Shown: positions 8,922-19,377, numbered from the stretch's first letter. The stretch: DNA of 52,502 bases from Candidatus Omnitrophota bacterium (GCA_022703565.1 JAKLDK010000002.1:1-52502), one strand, 5' to 3'. Notes: a model not told the origin generated them from the sequence alone. Made by a program: numbers and translations.

Positions 8922-11900
8922 CTAATTTGACCGGATAGAAGTATAGGTATCCTTAACTTCGCTTAATTCAAAACTTTTGTCATTATCATCAAGGCCTAAC
9001 AATAAATGCAGATTCCGTGCCGGCTGAATATTTATAATTACCGGAATTAATCCTTCAATCTGAATGTTTAATCGCGCGGGAATAGAATTCTCATTAGGCA
9101 GAATATCTTTACTCCCATTTTTCTCAACTTGCATATTGATACTATTAGGGTTCAAATCAATACCGCCGAGGTCTTTCGCCATTACTGAAGTATTTTGCGT
9201 TTGGCTATCTTCTTCTTTTACCAGCATCGCCGAATCCGTAAACTTTTTCGCGATTGTTTTAGCTCTTTGATATTGCTCCTCGGTCAATCCATAATGCGTT
9301 GCAACCTCTAAACCGTAGCTCTTAGTACTTACATCAGGATCCAAAGAAACCGAGCGCTTAAAATCAAACTTTCTGGTCTCCTCATCAAATTCATAATCCA
9401 TTTTATAAATGTCAGCCCCGACAATATCTTTAAGCTCTTTAATTCCCTTGGTTAAATGGGTGTTTAAAATTACTTTTGCGCCGATGGCCTTGAGATAAGT
9501 TAATATTGCCATTTGAATTGCCGTCATTTCCAGATGATCAGTGCCAGAAATTTCATCCAAAATAACCAAACTATCTTCCCCTGAGGTTTGAATGATCTTC
9601 AAATAAATAGTCCATAAAACATTTTCAAAATAACTAAAACTATCAACGTCATAATCTGAAGCGCCAAAAAATGTTTTTACATCAAAACCTTTACTTACCT
9701 CAATTTCTTTTGCCGGAACCATAAAACCAGCTTCAGCCATTTTGATCAAGGATTGTATCATCCTAAAAGCGTTAGTTTTTCCGCTAGCATTGGGCCCAAT
9801 AAAGATATTAATCGGAGAATTCAATTCAAAATCCTGCGGGACAATTTCTTCTCCTTCCGGAACTTTTGTTAAAATATATTTTCCGCCTTTTATTTTTAAT
9901 ATCCCGGGCTTATCAGCAATCTCAGGAGCAACCAAATTATTATCAATTGCACCTATCGCCAATCCGACCAAAAAGTCTAATCCGATTAAATCTTGTGATA
10001 AATATTTCATAAGATTATCAATATCTCGGCTCTGATTAAAGCCATCATCTTCTTTTTTGATTTCATCTAATGTTTTTATCCCTTCTCGCGACGGCCTTAT
10101 CATTCTGCCATCAAAAATATCCCGCAAATTATTACTATCAATAAACGCATCCACTTGCGTCAGAATCTGATCAATTCTATCGACCATCCCCTTATAAACA
10201 CTGATATCATAATTATTTCTTCGCTTCATTTTTTTATGTTTAAAATATATATCTACCAACTCTTTAAGAAGAGTATTCATTCTTAGCAACTCTTCTTTTC
10301 CTGTTTTTGCGAATCTTTCTACTCGAGTAAATCTGTTTGTAAAACTTCGCGAATCATATCCAGGATAAGAATAAAAAACTCTGTTGTATCCTTCCCTCAA
10401 ACCGCCAGCAAATATAAAATGCTCATATTCCCCCTCCCGATATTCTATTTCCCTGACCTTTTCTGAAATAGAATATTTATATAATGACCCGGTTATCCCA
10501 TGCATTTGCATAAGTCTTCTCCGGTATTGATCATAAGATAGAAATGCAAAGTTTGCCTCGGGAAAAAGAATTTCAAGTTCTTCCCAAGGCAACGAATAAT
10601 AACTATGCCGATTATCCTGCTGCCGCCAATGTTTTATGCTGGAGATAACCTCATCTAACTTTTCCTGCTCAATGGGAACACCTTTTACCAGATAGTCGTA
10701 ATACAACTCAGCTAGCTTTACAATGGACTCTTCTGAAATAACCTTCTTTAAAGCTGCCAAGGCATGGCTTTCAGCCGCAATACCGGGAACTAATTTATAA
10801 TGCGATATTAATTTTCCGTCTGATGAAATTTCATAGCTATTAATCCAAGCTTGAACTTTATCGCTAATTGAGGCATTTGGATTATCCTTTAAAAGGCGTA
10901 TGGCCTCTTTTATATGCGTTGCGGTTATAACCGTCGCGTGTTTTTTTATTAAATCCTCATAAAAAATAGTTGAAATACCAAGTAAATCACTATAATCCGA
11001 ACCGCTAACAGGTTCGTCCAGAAGAAAAAGATCTCTATCCGACGCATCATTTAACCATTTAGTAATCTTATCAACAATATTTGTGAAATGACTAAAGCCG
11101 GAGTTTACAGCTTCTTCCTTAGGATAAATAGAATTAACATTTCTCATCCAGCTAATCCGCGCACTTTTTGCCGGAACGAAAAGCCCCAAATGAGCCATAA
11201 CAACTGAATAGCCGATTGCGCGCGCTGTAGTAGATTTGCCAGCGGCATTAGGACCGGTTAATGCAAAAAACGATTTGTTTTTATCGATACTAATATCGTT
11301 TAAAACAGGCTCCTCATCTTTGGAAATTGAAGGAGGATGATAAACTTGTTCTAATTCAATAGTCCCGGCCTCATCCAGCATCTGCGGCCTCGTCCAACCG
11401 TTCTTTTTGTGATGCATTGACGCGGTTACATAAAAACTGACTTCGCCTAAATAATTGTAAAATAAATCAACCGGTAAATTTCTTTGTCGATCTGTTAAAG
11501 TTTTGCCTTCTTCCGGCTTCTTAAATAAATCCTTATCCGCTAAAATCGCTTCCAATTTCTTCTTAAGCCTGGTAAAACGGCTCGATTTTAGATCTTTAAT
11601 AGCTCCCAGTAAATCCGTTATCGCTCCTTCTATCTCCTTGAGATCAAAATAAATAAATTCATCCGCCTGTGCTTGCTGAAAAGGTTTTTTATCTTCGCGT
11701 CCTTCCTGAAACATCCTATCAAGCAACTTACTGCCTTCACTTTCTTCTTCAAAACGAAAGTTACCATACATTTTTTCGTATAAATCTTCTTGCTCTGGAC
11801 GGAAAGGATAGTACAAATGCTTAACCCAAAAAGAAGAATACGAGCGTCCCGTCCAGCGCGGCCTTTTATAAAAAGGTGGCGTATAAAACATATTCTCAGC

Positions 11901-14900
11901 AAGTTTCTCAACTCTTGTTAAAGCTTCACGAAATTTTAAAACCACCTTAGCATCTTTTACATCCGCCTCTAATATTTCCGCAATCGCCTCATGCGAAGCA
12001 AGTATTGCTTGAGGCTTTCTTTGCGGCCGAGCAATCAATTTTTCCAGATATTTCTCAGCAGACAAGGTCAATGAATATTTCCCAAGATTAACATTATCTT
12101 TTCTATTTCTCCCTGTCCTTCTGGAAAACGATACATAATCATCTTGAGCTTTATTTACTGACGTAACCGGCTCATCCGGCTTATTAAACATTGCCTTTAA
12201 CTCTTCAAGTCCGATTCCTAAATATTCCATCGTTTCTTTAGAAGCCCTGAATTTCCCCCGCGTTGTCCCGCCCAGCATTGCCGGGTCAAACGACAAAGAA
12301 GCTCTTGTGGCAATTTGTTTCCCGCCGGAATTATTAACTTTTTTTCTACTATATAAATAATTATCCTGCTGGGTTAAAAGCGCAATCCCCAGCCTATCAC
12401 CGCCCAGATGAATAGCTCCGCCATTTATCAAATACCTTGTTGCCCTTGTCAAATCACCTTCTTTTGCCATATCAACAAAATGCATCGCCAATATCTCGCC
12501 TCGGCTATTTAAACTAAAGAAAATATATATCGGCAAGGCAACATCTAATTTACTGCCATGCACAAAAGCATTCTTTAATAATTCCATAAAAGGAAAATTA
12601 TATTTCCCGGAAAAAGCCTGCCCGATATTCTGAGAAAACCGATGAAAGAAATTTGAAATATTTAATAACTTAAGGAATTCATCCTGATTATCAAAAACCC
12701 TTAAATCAATCTTTACGGCTTTACCTTCTTTTAAAGCCTGCGCAACTAACTTAAACCAATCATCTTCTTTATCGGAATTTCCCGCAATTTCCAAAGTATA
12801 TTCAATATCAGCAACTTCCTTTGCCGGGCTACGAGCCTTGACATATTTCTCAACTTGAGCGACGCGTTCTTGCTGCTCATTTTTTACCAGCATCGCTGAA
12901 TCTTTCGGTTTTCCTGGCAACTCATTTATATACACCCAGGTTTCAACCTCTCCTTGAATTTTACTAGCCTTTCCAATCTTTTCCAAGAATTCCATAACCG
13001 TTAAAACCATTTCCGCTGATAATACAACCTTTACTTTTTGGTTAATAAAATCCACTTTCTTAGAATAACTTAAAATATCTTCAACAGTAAAAGGCTTATC
13101 TTCAAAAGTTTTCACAATATCAATAACTTTTAATATTGTTCCGCTTATTTCATTCATTATCTTTTCTCCAGTATTTTGGATATCCGTCATTTCTAACAAC
13201 TCTTCCATAGCATCTCCAAAATCCTGTATTTCTTCTTTCGACATTTTAAATAAATTTAATTTCTTCAATCGTACGGTAGTTATATCATCAAGCCCAAAAC
13301 TCTCGGACAAAGAAGACGCGACATCTTCTCCGCTAGCTATACTAGATAAACTAAAATCAATAAATTCTTCTAGTATTCCCGACATAAATGTCGGCGAAAT
13401 ATCCTTAAACAAGAAAGCTATCAGGTTACTACGATCCACTTCTAAGGTAGCCTCGATTAGATTTGCCAAAACAAAATCGGCAACCTCTTCGCCTTTTTTG
13501 TTTAAATAATTCCCCACAGGAATTAATAAACGGACCAGTTCATTTCGTTTTGGCTTAAGAACATTCTCAATAATAGCTCGGCCTATATCTGCCGGCTGGA
13601 TACCCGTAATACTGCTTACCCGCTGAATATGCGCTGCTAACAACGAAGAATCTTGTTCTTTTGGTAACTCGTTTGTATCTGCAATAACTTTGCTTATTTT
13701 CTCAGCACCTGAGGAATCTTTTTCTCCCCAGGCAATTATTGCCTCTTCAATAATAATCGCATCATCTTCGCCTAGCCCGAAACCAAAGGTTTCGGAAAGG
13801 CGCAATTTATCTTCTTTTGAAGCGCCTTCTTTCCACTCTCCGTCGACAAAATCACGTTCCACCACTTCGTTCTGAACATCTTTCAATCCGGTATCTTCTA
13901 AAACCGAAAGCAATTCTTCGGGCTTTCGAAATTCATTTTCGTGGCTACGCAAATAAAGAATAAGCATAATTCCGTCATCATTCAATAAAGCTTGCACATC
14001 TCTTAAAACTCTTGTTAGTGTTTCATTGTCAAAAAATACCGACGCATTGGCAATCGTAATTACATCATATTTCTCACTGTTGTTAAACGAACCCGGTAAA
14101 TCCAAAAGGTTTCCTTCTCTTAATTCAACTTGATTGCCGGGATATTTCTTATCCAATCTCCCTTTTGCGGCTTCAAGCATTTTTGGCGCGACATCTAGCC
14201 CAACGATATCCTTAACTCCTTGTGCTAAAGCTTCTTCTACAATAAGCCCTGTGCCTGTTGCCAAATCCAACCATTTTAAATCTTTTCCTTTTTTGGTAAT
14301 TACTTTGCCAACCAATTCCTGCGCCCCACGTCGGACAATAACGGAATCTGGCAAAACATATTGCTCGATATCACTCTCGCTAAATTCCTTATAATGGCTG
14401 GCCCAATCCCTATTGGTAAACCTGTTTCCCATCATCGCTTCGTCCCGAGAAAATGTAATTGTTTCCGAGTTATGATTAATTCCTTTTACTACAAAAGTAA
14501 CTTCTCTATTCTCCCCAACAGGATTATCTATTGCCCGAAGGACTCCTTCGCGTATTTCTCCCCGGCGCAAATCATCCGGCCCTAAACTAGATTGCGCACC
14601 ACTTAACTTAACACCGCCTGAAAAATATTTACGCGGAATAACTTTTTGAGACTTCTCGTCATAATCTTCCCTGATATAACTATAAACGCCTTTTTTTAGC
14701 GATTCCAAATATTGTGCATATATCTTCCGATTAACTTCTTTATCGTCGATATTAATCCCCTTAATCTTGTTTTGATCAATATAACTATTAGTCAGAAAAC
14801 TATTTTTCAGGTGTTCCTTATACCATTTGGCTAAAATAACCGCGTTGTAAATCTGCCGCAATGTCGCAAAATTCTTCCCCTCATTAACTTCACGTTCAAT

Positions 14901-15632
14901 CTCCGGGACAACAATATCTTTAATAATTTCATTAATTTGGTGTTCTTCTTGTGGGCTTGTGACTTGTGACCGGTGGTCTGCTTCCTCTGCCATCAAAACC
15001 TTGAGCTTGCTCTTAACCACAAAGGCACTATTCCCATTTTCATAAATCAGAGCCTCATCCGGGACAATCCACACTCTCGAGAATGTATCCGACGGTATTG
15101 TTGCAATTCCATATGTATCGAAAGTTTCTTTGTAAACCCGGCTCCAGAACTTCTCGCCCAAATCATCCTCCGGATAAACCAAAGATGCCGTTAATTGTTT
15201 TAAAATATAATCCTCAGCGAGCAAATCCCGCCCCATTTCTGTTTGACCAAAAGAAGCAGAGATAATCCTGTCCTTTTCTGCCGGAGAAAGATTTACCCAC
15301 ATTTCATTCTCAGGTACAGTTAACGCAGCTAGAAAATATTTTATTAGTTTCTTTGATTCTTGCTCAAATTCCGAATCCGAAAAGTTTGTATTTCCAGTAT
15401 CAACAATAAACTTGAACTCAAAAGGTTTTTCCGGGTTAATTGTCAACCCGTTAATGATTGCGGGAGTAAAAACCGGGGTAGATAAAACCATTTTCCCAAC
15501 CGGCGGCAGGCCCAATGAATTTTGGGCATAAGAATTTGTCAATCCGAAGCTAAGCGTATTTATTGAGAAACAAAATACAACCAGCCATAAAATTATCTTT
15601 TTAAATCTGTTTTTTGTTATTTGGAAATACAT
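8922..15632 (-). CDS. Giant exported multidomain protein: methyltransferase, GHKL-like and two MutS-like ATPase modules
   Basis: About 2236 residues counted from ATG 15630-15632. Domains in order: signal peptide 1-36 (KNRFKK then a hydrophobic stretch, predicted cut after SYA); a conserved N-terminal domain, about 38-341, opening LGLPPVGKMVLSTPVFTP and closing IPRKYFSGGV; a class I SAM methyltransferase, about 395-570 (motif I LDLATGTGL near 455, then GLDVAPKML); a helical region with no match I know; linker DSAMLVKNEQQ near 911; a GHKL-like region, about 930-1110 (N-box MELLKNAFVHG 1016-1026, later GGDRLG 1077-1082); MutS-like module 1 (helical part, P-loop GPNAAGKST with Lys1466, LLDEPVSGSD with Asp1539-Glu1540); MutS-like module 2 (GPNASGKT with Lys1952, ILDEISGTD with Asp2026-Glu2027); linker DSAMLVKEED near 2132; and a tail with GGIDLNPNSINMQ and LIPVIINIQP. 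An in-frame TTG start 22 codons upstream is possible but lies on the predicted promoter. The molecular function is unknown; domain calls come from motifs. Confidence 0.85.
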   Translation of the reverse strand: MYFQITKNRFKKIILWLVVFCFSINTLSFGLTNSYAQNSLGLPPVGKMVLSTPVFTPAIINGLTINPEKPFEFKFIVDTGNTNFSDSEFEQESKKLIKYFLAALTVPENEMWVNLSPAEKDRIISASFGQTEMGRDLLAEDYILKQLTASLVYPEDDLGEKFWSRVYKETFDTYGIATIPSDTFSRVWIVPDEALIYENGNSAFVVKSKLKVLMAEEADHRSQVTSPQEEHQINEIIKDIVVPEIEREVNEGKNFATLRQIYNAVILAKWYKEHLKNSFLTNSYIDQNKIKGINIDDKEVNRKIYAQYLESLKKGVYSYIREDYDEKSQKVIPRKYFSGGVKLSGAQSSLGPDDLRRGEIREGVLRAIDNPVGENREVTFVVKGINHNSETITFSRDEAMMGNRFTNRDWASHYKEFSESDIEQYVLPDSVIVRRGAQELVGKVITKKGKDLKWLDLATGTGLIVEEALAQGVKDIVGLDVAPKMLEAAKGRLDKKYPGNQVELREGNLLDLPGSFNNSEKYDVITIANASVFFDNETLTRVLRDVQALLNDDGIMLILYLRSHENEFRKPEELLSVLEDTGLKDVQNEVVERDFVDGEWKEGASKEDKLRLSETFGFGLGEDDAIIIEEAIIAWGEKDSSGAEKISKVIADTNELPKEQDSSLLAAHIQRVSSITGIQPADIGRAIIENVLKPKRNELVRLLIPVGNYLNKKGEEVADFVLANLIEATLEVDRSNLIAFLFKDISPTFMSGILEEFIDFSLSSIASGEDVASSLSESFGLDDITTVRLKKLNLFKMSKEEIQDFGDAMEELLEMTDIQNTGEKIMNEISGTILKVIDIVKTFEDKPFTVEDILSYSKKVDFINQKVKVVLSAEMVLTVMEFLEKIGKASKIQGEVETWVYINELPGKPKDSAMLVKNEQQERVAQVEKYVKARSPAKEVADIEYTLEIAGNSDKEDDWFKLVAQALKEGKAVKIDLRVFDNQDEFLKLLNISNFFHRFSQNIGQAFSGKYNFPFMELLKNAFVHGSKLDVALPIYIFFSLNSRGEILAMHFVDMAKEGDLTRATRYLINGGAIHLGGDRLGIALLTQQDNYLYSRKKVNNSGGKQIATRASLSFDPAMLGGTTRGKFRASKETMEYLGIGLEELKAMFNKPDEPVTSVNKAQDDYVSFSRRTGRNRKDNVNLGKYSLTLSAEKYLEKLIARPQRKPQAILASHEAIAEILEADVKDAKVVLKFREALTRVEKLAENMFYTPPFYKRPRWTGRSYSSFWVKHLYYPFRPEQEDLYEKMYGNFRFEEESEGSKLLDRMFQEGREDKKPFQQAQADEFIYFDLKEIEGAITDLLGAIKDLKSSRFTRLKKKLEAILADKDLFKKPEEGKTLTDRQRNLPVDLFYNYLGEVSFYVTASMHHKKNGWTRPQMLDEAGTIELEQVYHPPSISKDEEPVLNDISIDKNKSFFALTGPNAAGKSTTARAIGYSVVMAHLGLFVPAKSARISWMRNVNSIYPKEEAVNSGFSHFTNIVDKITKWLNDASDRDLFLLDEPVSGSDYSDLLGISTIFYEDLIKKHATVITATHIKEAIRLLKDNPNASISDKVQAWINSYEISSDGKLISHYKLVPGIAAESHALAALKKVISEESIVKLAELYYDYLVKGVPIEQEKLDEVISSIKHWRQQDNRHSYYSLPWEELEILFPEANFAFLSYDQYRRRLMQMHGITGSLYKYSISEKVREIEYREGEYEHFIFAGGLREGYNRVFYSYPGYDSRSFTNRFTRVERFAKTGKEELLRMNTLLKELVDIYFKHKKMKRRNNYDISVYKGMVDRIDQILTQVDAFIDSNNLRDIFDGRMIRPSREGIKTLDEIKKEDDGFNQSRDIDNLMKYLSQDLIGLDFLVGLAIGAIDNNLVAPEIADKPGILKIKGGKYILTKVPEGEEIVPQDFELNSPINIFIGPNASGKTNAFRMIQSLIKMAEAGFMVPAKEIEVSKGFDVKTFFGASDYDVDSFSYFENVLWTIYLKIIQTSGEDSLVILDEISGTDHLEMTAIQMAILTYLKAIGAKVILNTHLTKGIKELKDIVGADIYKMDYEFDEETRKFDFKRSVSLDPDVSTKSYGLEVATHYGLTEEQYQRAKTIAKKFTDSAMLVKEEDSQTQNTSVMAKDLGGIDLNPNSINMQVEKNGSKDILPNENSIPARLNIQIEGLIPVIINIQPARNLHLLLGLDDNDKSFELSEVKDTYTSIRSN

Positions 15633-16982: not shown

Positions 16983-17663
16983 TTACCCTTGCCCTGTTTC
17001 TCTTTTTATCCGCTCCAGAATCTTTTCGTTTTCCTTAAGTTTTTGTTCTAATTTAACATAATCCGATTTTGCTACCCAAGCCGTATCTTCTTTTTTCTTG
17101 GACAACTCGATTATCTGCGATTTCAAATCAGCAATTTCCTGGCGGTATTGTTCAATCATATTCTTTAATTGCGCATTCTGCGCGTCTAAAGCGCGCCTTT
17201 CATCATTAAGCACGCTATTCTCTTTCTTCTGTTCTTGCGACAACTTATCTAACTTAATGTATTGCGAATGCTCTTTAGATACTGTCTCTTGCAAACTATG
17301 TAATTCTTTCTTTAAGGAGTTAATTTCTTGGCTTTTCTTATCAACGTCAACCTTCTCTTTATCCCGCCAGCCGCGCTCTTGCGTAATCTTCTCATCCATT
17401 TTGTTTTTTTCAGCCTGTAAATGCTCTACGCGCTTTTCCAAATCCTTTATTTTGTTTTGATTACCTTCTATTTCTTGCCGTAATGACTTCACATGCCGCT
17501 CATTATGCGAAGCTATTTTCTCCCAATCTTTTTGTTGTTCGGCTTGGCCCTTTTTCCGCCTTCGTTCACGGATCGCAATCTCCGCCGGAATAAGGAAAAT
17601 AACCGCCAACAAAATTAAGATTAAAACAATCCCTATGCTTAAGACTGTGTTAGTTGATAACAT
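16983..17663 (-). CDS. Membrane-anchored coiled-coil protein, unknown function
   Basis: 226 residues. An N-terminal membrane segment (VLSIGIVLILILLAVIFLI) is followed by a long, highly charged heptad-rich coiled coil (about 40-225) with many Lys, Glu and Gln. No enzymatic motif is present. The start overlaps the last codons of the upstream TPR membrane protein and its stop touches the aminotransferase, so it is part of that operon. It may act as a membrane-tethered scaffold; this is inference from shape alone. Confidence 0.75.
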   Translation of the reverse strand: MLSTNTVLSIGIVLILILLAVIFLIPAEIAIRERRRKKGQAEQQKDWEKIASHNERHVKSLRQEIEGNQNKIKDLEKRVEHLQAEKNKMDEKITQERGWRDKEKVDVDKKSQEINSLKKELHSLQETVSKEHSQYIKLDKLSQEQKKENSVLNDERRALDAQNAQLKNMIEQYRQEIADLKSQIIELSKKKEDTAWVAKSDYVKLEQKLKENEKILERIKRETGQG

Positions 17664-19377
17664 CGAGTATTCCTTTATTCATTTGGAGTAAAATTGTCAA
17701 ATTCTTGCGGGCTATGCCTGATTCCGGGTTAGCATTTAAGTCAATCGCCGCTTTAAAATGCTGCGCCGCTTTTAAAAATTCATCTTTTTCAATATAGCAT
17801 ACTGCAATATTATTATGTGTCGCCGCGTTCTTTGGGTTTATTAAAATAGCTTGTGTGTAAAATCCGATTGCTTTCTCGTAATCGCCTGTTTCCCGGTAAC
17901 AAGTCCCCATATCAGAGAATATCTCGACGATAAAATCCAGATAAAACTTCTCCGCCTTGGTACCTTTAGCTTTTTCAAGATATTCGTTAAATATCGCTAA
18001 AGACTTTTGATATTCCGTAATCGCCTCGCCATACATCTTTTTTCTATAATAGGCTTTAGCTAAAAGAATCCGGACGCGGCCAAAATTCTTTTCATACTTA
18101 AGTGTTTTCTGGAACAAGAACGTTTCATCCTGCCAATAACTATTATTTTCAACAGTAATTACAATCGATAGTAAGGATATTATAACAATTGTTAAAATAC
18201 TATATTTTATCGCCTTATTTCGATCAACTGCAAATAACGCCTCTTGGATTAAAAACGCGATAAAAATCAATAACCCAATTACCGGCAAATACATAAAATG
18301 TTCAGCAGTTAAGACAAAAGAATATTCGTTAATTAAAGGGACAATATTTAAAACCGGCAGAATAGTTACAACAAACCATCCCAAGCCGAATAAAAGCTTT
18401 GGCCTCGTCGGCCTTGACGCAGCTTTAACGGCAAAAATCATTATAGCAATTATACCGAGCAAAATAATCATTGGCCAGAAATAAGGCTTTAATATATCCG
18501 TACTACGGTAATAATGCAAATCATACGGCAAAATAACCAGGCGCATAAAGGTCAGGAGTGTCCGCGGGATTGAAAGCAGCCTTAAGAATAATTCTTCCTT
18601 AAAAAGAAATATACCGGAAAGAGAAAAACCAAACAATATCTTTCTGGCAAGAAAATATATAAAAGCAACCAAGAAATACCCAGCTAAACCAAATAGTTTA
18701 TAGCGGACTTTTTGTTTTTCTTTTTTGTTTACCAATAAATACAGCAAGAAAACAAACGGCATTACAATCGCTTGCTCTTTAGACAATAAAGCTAAAACAA
18801 AAAAGATTAAAGAAATAAAATAACGGGTAATCCTTTTAAGCCCGGATAATTTTCCGCTATTAACAAAGAATAAGAACGACAGCAAAAAGAATAGAGTAAA
18901 AACCAAATTGGATATCCCGGATATTGTCGCGACAGCTTCGCTTTGAATGGGATGAACCAAGAATATCAAAGCTATCGCTAAGTTGGCAATCCTATTTTCC
19001 AGAAATATCTTCTGCAATAACAAATAAAGCAAAAGGCTATTCGCCAAATGGACAATAATGTTAAAGAAATGGTATAAAAATGGCTGGGTGCCGAAAACTT
19101 TAAACTGCAGGCGGTATAATAATTCCAGTATCGGGCGGAAATATTGATTAATTAAAGGATTGGCCTGATTATCGACCGAATAACTAAAAACCGATTTCAA
19201 GCTTAAATTATTGATCTGCGGATTCTTCAAAATAAAAACAACATCATCATGAATAAAAGGGTGGAAAATCGCGTTAAAATAGCCCAAAAAACCTAAAAAA
19301 CTTAATATTAAAATAACATGTGCTAGCCGTAAGCCCTTTAAACTTCTGTATATACTGATATAAAGGTAGTCTTTCAC
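17650..19377 (-). CDS. Polytopic membrane protein with C-terminal TPRs (GT-C/PMT-like)
   Basis: 575 residues. About ten membrane helices fill residues 15-410, and two to three tetratricopeptide repeats lie at about 430-560 (ILLAKAYYRKKMYGEAITEY, then DMGTCYRETGDYEKAIGFYT). The first periplasmic loop has HPFIHDDVVFILKNPQINN, the Asp-Asp placement of GT-C lipid-linked sugar transferases, and the following NPLINQYFRPILEL is typical of the TPR-GT39 family found in Omnitrophota, Planctomycetota and Bacteroidota. It probably transfers sugar from a lipid carrier to an exported substrate. The start is GTG at 19375-19377, 12 bp after the HPt gene. Confidence 0.8.
   Translation of the reverse strand: MKDYLYISIYRSLKGLRLAHVILILSFLGFLGYFNAIFHPFIHDDVVFILKNPQINNLSLKSVFSYSVDNQANPLINQYFRPILELLYRLQFKVFGTQPFLYHFFNIIVHLANSLLLYLLLQKIFLENRIANLAIALIFLVHPIQSEAVATISGISNLVFTLFFLLSFLFFVNSGKLSGLKRITRYFISLIFFVLALLSKEQAIVMPFVFLLYLLVNKKEKQKVRYKLFGLAGYFLVAFIYFLARKILFGFSLSGIFLFKEELFLRLLSIPRTLLTFMRLVILPYDLHYYRSTDILKPYFWPMIILLGIIAIMIFAVKAASRPTRPKLLFGLGWFVVTILPVLNIVPLINEYSFVLTAEHFMYLPVIGLLIFIAFLIQEALFAVDRNKAIKYSILTIVIISLLSIVITVENNSYWQDETFLFQKTLKYEKNFGRVRILLAKAYYRKKMYGEAITEYQKSLAIFNEYLEKAKGTKAEKFYLDFIVEIFSDMGTCYRETGDYEKAIGFYTQAILINPKNAATHNNIAVCYIEKDEFLKAAQHFKAAIDLNANPESGIARKNLTILLQMNKGILDVIN

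Follow-up and report, generated by a model that had tools for sequence, protein, structure and literature searches.

A family of cysteine-poor, predicted exported giant proteins in Omnitrophota with constant terminal modules and enzyme cargo, including a tandem MutS-type ATPase

Polymorphic effector and toxin families join a constant N-terminal module to swappable cargo and occur as large gene families, while substrates of the type IX secretion system (T9SS) carry a signal peptide and a conserved C-terminal sorting module at their very end, and share no N-terminal module. Bacterial enzymes that depend on ATP, NAD or S-adenosylmethionine (SAM) are unexpected outside the cytoplasm. Here we analyse a 52,502-nucleotide stretch of DNA from a Candidatus Omnitrophota bacterium (GCA_022703565.1 JAKLDK010000002.1:1-52502; hereafter the window, with positions counted from its first letter). 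A gene at 8922-15632 on its minus strand encodes a 2236-amino-acid (aa) protein with a predicted signal peptide, a methyltransferase domain and two MutS-type ATPase modules, which we place in a family of large proteins bookended by an N-terminal module (NTD, or N-module) and a C-terminal module (CTD, or C-module).

Relative to polymorphic effectors and toxins, this family adds the constant C-module and cargo from central metabolism arranged in series, and no delivery machine or immunity gene was identified. It differs from T9SS substrates in its shared N-module and in its CTD, which is ~60 residues long and has a motif of another kind (GGID...PVIINI.P). Within the phylum, the passages of Seymour et al. 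(2023, PMC10066038) that deal with giant open reading frames describe examples of >20 kb with obscure function and few annotated domains, many of them carrying transmembrane helices and adhesion domains, and propose extracellular roles. The window gene is alike in phylum, large size and scarcity of annotated domains, but at 6.7 kb it falls short of 20 kb, and its product has defined N- and C-modules, cargo of cytosolic-enzyme type and no transmembrane segment beyond the signal. We found no literature account of these two modules, on which the relevant passages of PMC10066038 are silent, and this family of cysteine-poor, bookended giants is apparently undescribed.

The window gene is a single uninterrupted frame of 2236 codons, running from an ATG at 15632 to a stop codon at 8922-8924 with no internal stops in its translation. 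The first-pass annotation of the window had reported the same coordinates and unbroken frame, and had allowed that the frame might be an assembly fusion of several genes. We reject a fusion as unlikely because GC content is level along the whole length of the gene and because an independent genome of the same genus encodes a signal peptide, N-module, tandem MutS modules and C-module within one 3018-aa frame. Absent from that annotation were the C-module, the D-x-A-M-L borders between units, the size of the family and the fact that the MutS pair is a single unit which distant relatives also have.

The predicted signal peptide (residues 1-37; 15522..15632, minus strand; KNRFKKIILWLVVFCFSINTLSFGLTNSYAQ) has positive charges ahead of its hydrophobic core, an N-in pattern, with cleavage expected in the SYA-Q region. 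The Kyte-Doolittle (KD) maximum of the protein falls at residue 13, and the hydropathy profile gave no further convincing transmembrane segment. Relatives start alike: by simple rules, 139 of 140 N-module proteins open with a charged stretch, a hydrophobic core and a small-x-small site. Cysteine is depleted 15-fold in the family, at 0.085% of 74 mature proteins (118,589 aa) compared with 1.25% for 393 neighbouring genes that lack a signal and 0.69% for those neighbours whose start is signal-like, and the remaining residues show no comparable shift. The mature window protein contains no cysteine in 2199 residues, where about 27 would be expected. In a domain-matched control, the tandem MutS units of four NTD-bearing proteins hold one cysteine in 4253 aa, whereas cysteine makes up 0.55% of 39 regions from canonical MutS. 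Given this near absence of cysteine and the agreement of the control, the entire chain very probably exits the reducing cytoplasm and has been cleared of cysteine residues. Genes for a secretin and for Omp85, both outer-membrane genes, are present in the genome, and the producer therefore likely has a second membrane.

The export signal had been recognised in the first-pass annotation, which also offered an uncleaved membrane anchor, with the bulk of the chain in the cytoplasm, as one way to reconcile it with domains that need ATP and SAM. Such domains are indeed normally cytoplasmic. We nevertheless regard an anchor as very improbable, because the cysteine-free mature chain, the family-wide depletion and the domain-matched control all speak against it, as do the N-in charges and cleavable-type motif of those 139 starts.

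The NTD (residues 38-340, ending in YFSGG; 14613..15521, minus strand) is supported by an alignment of seven copies from the same genome and by an AlphaFold2 (AF2) model. The model of this ~300-aa module has a predicted local distance difference test score (pLDDT) of 85 and a predicted template modelling score (pTM) of 0.87. It matched no fold in the PDB or in BFVD (predicted viral structures) at E<=0.001, and tallies of the family proteins against Pfam and NCBIfam held no family matching it. The CTD (residues about 2156-2219, GGIDLNP...GLIPVIINIQPARNLHLLLGL; 8976..9167, minus strand; placed with a CTD model) is a GGI[DN][LF]-type module, and in the window protein this module lies within ~45 aa of the stop. 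The two modules occur together. The CTD (~60 residues) is present in 74 of the 81 closed frames with an N-module, ending <=44 aa before the stop, and the N-module in 75 of the 79 C-module frames that are closed on their 5' side; since the loci were collected through the N-module, the former count tests the pairing more fairly. Four of the exceptions have the absent module in an adjacent frame of the same locus, as a frameshift or sequence gap would produce, and we attribute most exceptions to frameshifts or gaps. Sought independently in the window's own genome, the C-module was found in six copies, each in a frame that either carries the N-module or is truncated by the end of its contig.

That the N-terminal domain belongs to giant Omnitrophota proteins had been a hunch of the first-pass annotation, and wider searches upheld it. 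The window NTD matches the N-module profile at E 1.4e-168, the first 340 residues of the protein have nine matches in its own draft genome, and a scan of named genomes with the N-module gave 79 loci, almost all of which carry an Omnitrophota label. The module occurs in 137 of 384 genomes sampled from the phylum, every one in the window's class; within the order it is found in 24 of 25 genomes of the window's own family and in 35 of 36 from the rest (59 of the 61 sampled). Two genomes of 2.2-2.6 Mb, scored in full, gave 58 and 75 matches. The proteins span 0.8 to 5 thousand aa, and gathering them and tabulating their cargo, as had been suggested, revealed variable cargo between constant N- and C-modules. 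With its signal and YFSGG-ending NTD, terminal CTD and strong cysteine depletion, the window protein belongs, as near to certainty as its sequence allows, to this predicted exported family. The N-module is also encoded on three contigs that carry a viral label in IMG/VR (L237, L238 and L239), for which a binning error or a provirus is possible. At the start of another contig (L027:1-606; G000:C172), ~46 residues of 6-phosphofructokinase (Pfam 6e-18) lead in frame into the latter half of an N-module, a junction that is either a chimeric contig edge or a real recombination.

The tandem MutS unit of the window protein (residues 1117-2132; 9237..12284, minus strand) is supported by an alignment of nine proteins and is free of linkers inside. 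The first-pass annotation had called two MutS-like ATPases, and Pfam finds MutS_V twice (E = 3.4e-45): at residues 1458-1642 (10707..11261, minus strand), with Walker A GPNAAGKST, Walker B LLDEP and the His motif ATH, and at residues about 1941-2130 (9243..9812, minus strand), with GPNASGKT, ILDEI and NTH. The structure prediction proposed at that stage yielded, for the tandem unit, an AF2 model (pLDDT 74) that resembles MutS and MutS2; it has 484 PDB matches at E<=0.001, the matches listed being MutS, MSH and MutS2 proteins. The MutS_V ATPase fold, Walker motifs and His are thus shared with MutS and MutS2 by both sequence and structural matches, whereas the window protein has two modules in one predicted exported chain and no mismatch-recognition or Smr domain was found in it. 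Known members of the superfamily were rejected as assignments: MutS1 scored 158.5 bits against an equivalog cut-off of 641.7, with MutS_V the sole MutS domain found by Pfam; MutS2 scored 168.9 bits against 400, with no Smr match by Pfam; and KamC, the lysine 5,6-aminomutase reactivase ATPase (NF052383), scored 139.7 bits against 300. KamC is likewise a MutS-like ATPase outside DNA repair, but is a single model of ~508 residues. Canonical MutS is encoded elsewhere in the genome.

Since linkers never separate the two MutS modules, we read them as one unit, and within the chain they probably pair as a MutS-type ATPase dimer. The unit occurs in nine proteins across the phylum, four of which carry the N-module, and the Walker and His motifs are conserved in all nine at 24-50% identity to the window protein, with one P-loop residue altered in a few. 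The combination of these bookends with a tandem MutS unit recurs in genomes of the window's genus and of its family, and a genome of its class has it with divergent modules. Between the window protein and its same-genus relative, identity is 48% for the MutS unit and 51% for the N-module, compared with 71% for cytosolic MutS, which suggests that both evolve faster than housekeeping sequence yet under constraint. The stretches between N-module and MutS unit are unlike in these two proteins, from which we conclude that cargo has been swapped there. Immediately upstream of the tandem-MutS gene in the same-genus genome lies a further family member (L160:14-5602). In one same-class genome, two contigs (L235 and L236) encode two tandem MutS proteins that begin with a hydrophobic stretch, lack the N-module and are close to normal in cysteine content.

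Ahead of the MutS unit, residues 450-567 (13932..14285, minus strand; motif I LDLATGTG) are a predicted class I SAM methyltransferase. Methyltransf_25 matches at 1.6e-13 and 51.5 bits against a cut-off of 27, and Methyltransf_31, Methyltransf_12 and Methyltransf_11 likewise score above cut-off over the same residues. These Pfam matches sustain the methyltransferase called in the first pass. The GHKL-like ATPase of the same annotation is a candidate. Residues about 1010-1100 (12333..12605, minus strand) show, in the expected order, the N-box ELLKNAFVHG, a G1-like motif that includes the D and a G2-like motif; the stretch has one homologue (L162) and a weak profile-profile match to a HATPase set (hhalign E 0.007, probability 5%), and it matched nothing in Pfam or the PDB.

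Short D-x-A-M-[LVF] linkers often mark the borders between units. A motif scan of the window protein, whose gene lies on the minus strand, placed DEAMM after the N-module (residues 397-401; 14430..14444), DSAML (911-915; 12888..12902) and DPAML (1116-1120; 12273..12287) on either side of the GHKL-like unit, a further DSAML before the C-module (2133-2137; 9222..9236), a weak linker-like DSSLL (661-665; 13638..13652), and none between the MutS modules. The density of D.AM[LVF] is 4.2 per 10,000 aa in the family against 0.10 in other frames (~40x), with 52 observed against ~3 in shuffles, and 27 of 28 linkers fall outside Pfam domains, a weak test (p 0.03). This enrichment and placement would suit an export polyprotein, cut at the linkers after export to free separate units, which is compatible with the other explanations considered here. 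We hold cleavage to be possible but rather unlikely: the linker is missing from about half of the family, no protease was identified, and a plain flexible linker accounts for the same data. The other end of the window's contig, past the window (L020; G000:C98), bears a second family fragment of 728 aa with a C-module and several D.AML linkers, adjoining oxidoreductase- and aminotransferase-like genes.

Other family members carry a broad range of cargo. An enolase scores 473 bits, above the equivalog cut-off of 300, and further metabolic domains include PGK, PGI, hexokinase, PPDK, starch synthase, NAPRTase, nicotinamidase, glutamate dehydrogenase, acyl-CoA dehydrogenase and ThiG. Fic, kinase-like/protein-kinase, ankyrin, WD40 and HEAT domains are also found; Fic, ankyrin, WD40, HEAT and protein-kinase domains are common in effectors. 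PGK and enolase stand in series in one predicted exported frame (L086 / L199), with catalytic motifs intact and no cysteine there, and PPDK and Fic motifs are intact in the examples examined, one being a Fic protein with an intact HPFADGNGR (L109:9968-14587). Enolase lies in a giant frame in six of 81 genomes of the order, mostly beside a normal enolase, and three of the six keep their catalytic motifs while the others have lost them in part. A tree gave no resolution on a single origin of these enolases, their branches being long.

This cargo could be read in ways that keep it with the producer. As a surface coat or scaffold, the giants would be retained in the periplasm, at the cell surface or within a matrix, with enzyme folds as building blocks whose catalysis is secondary or lost. 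The fast evolution of the exported enolases, some without the catalytic Lys motif, and the variety of cargo, which differs even between same-genus relatives, are in keeping with such a role, as is a giant Omnitrophota protein proposed as a coat former in PMC10066038. We think it possible but unlikely, since it leaves unexplained why both MutS modules keep Walker A, Walker B and the His motif in nine proteins, and the intact motifs of the PGK, enolase, PPDK and Fic examples. Less probable again is a non-cytoplasmic compartment of the producer, an enlarged periplasm or internal lumen holding ATP, SAM and sugar phosphates in which the enzymes would run. The cargo does cover several glycolytic steps (hexokinase, PGI, PGK, enolase and PPDK) and NAD salvage (NAPRTase and nicotinamidase), but the cargo set varies by genome, with exported enolase in those six genomes only, and no such compartment is documented for the lineage in the literature we found.

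We propose as the best explanation, at somewhat less than even confidence, that the family comprises modular giants exported through Sec, specific to one Omnitrophota class, whose ATPase acts outside the producing cytoplasm and likeliest in another cell. By sequence, each consists of a signal peptide, the unique N-module, cargo units often split by D-x-A-M-[LVF] linkers and the unique C-module; the two end modules would serve as handling signals for outer sorting or delivery steps. The paired MutS ATPase and the methyltransferase would then work outside the producing cytoplasm, and the interior of a host, partner or prey cell would be the likeliest site. Action inside another cell is a tentative proposal, a little less secure than the explanation as a whole; we favour it because ATP and SAM are required and the motifs are conserved, because ATP, SAM, NAD and sugar phosphates occur there, and because several kinds of cargo are of types frequent in effectors.

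Several observations weigh against this explanation. Among 93 loci compared, there was no dedicated secretion partner or strongly conserved neighbour. Signal peptides were called by simple rules and not by a trained predictor, and a life in the periplasm or on the cell surface could by itself account for the loss of cysteine. No N-module is visible in five of the nine tandem MutS proteins, of which two are also nearly free of cysteine, one of these two being truncated at both ends of its contig. Activity of the cargo is not a given, since some exported enolases lack the catalytic Lys motif and all sit on long branches, and the GHKL identity of the window unit is unproven. Near some of the 93 loci there is a response-regulator-type group, and at nine of them family genes have GT39-like (PMT_2) membrane proteins in their vicinity, some of these with TPR repeats, as at 17653-19377 in the window and at L022. 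A search of the window's own genome for an ATP/ADP translocase gave no hit, but neither did its control, so this negative carries no information.

These sequences may represent a delivery platform that has so far gone unrecognised, built on a new N-terminal fold with a matching C-terminal tag, that carries concatenated, cysteine-purged and catalytically competent central-metabolism and ATPase enzymes into other cells, although we consider this unlikely on present evidence. If true, the bacterium would run parts of metabolism and a MutS-type motor within foreign cytoplasm, and tens of genes per genome exporting such enzymes on a standard chassis would constitute a new kind of secretome. The new fold, the C-terminal tag and the linker would supply testable parts, and the cysteine test suggests that sequence alone can reveal such export. 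The family would give a first handle on the interactions of uncultured Omnitrophota with other cells.

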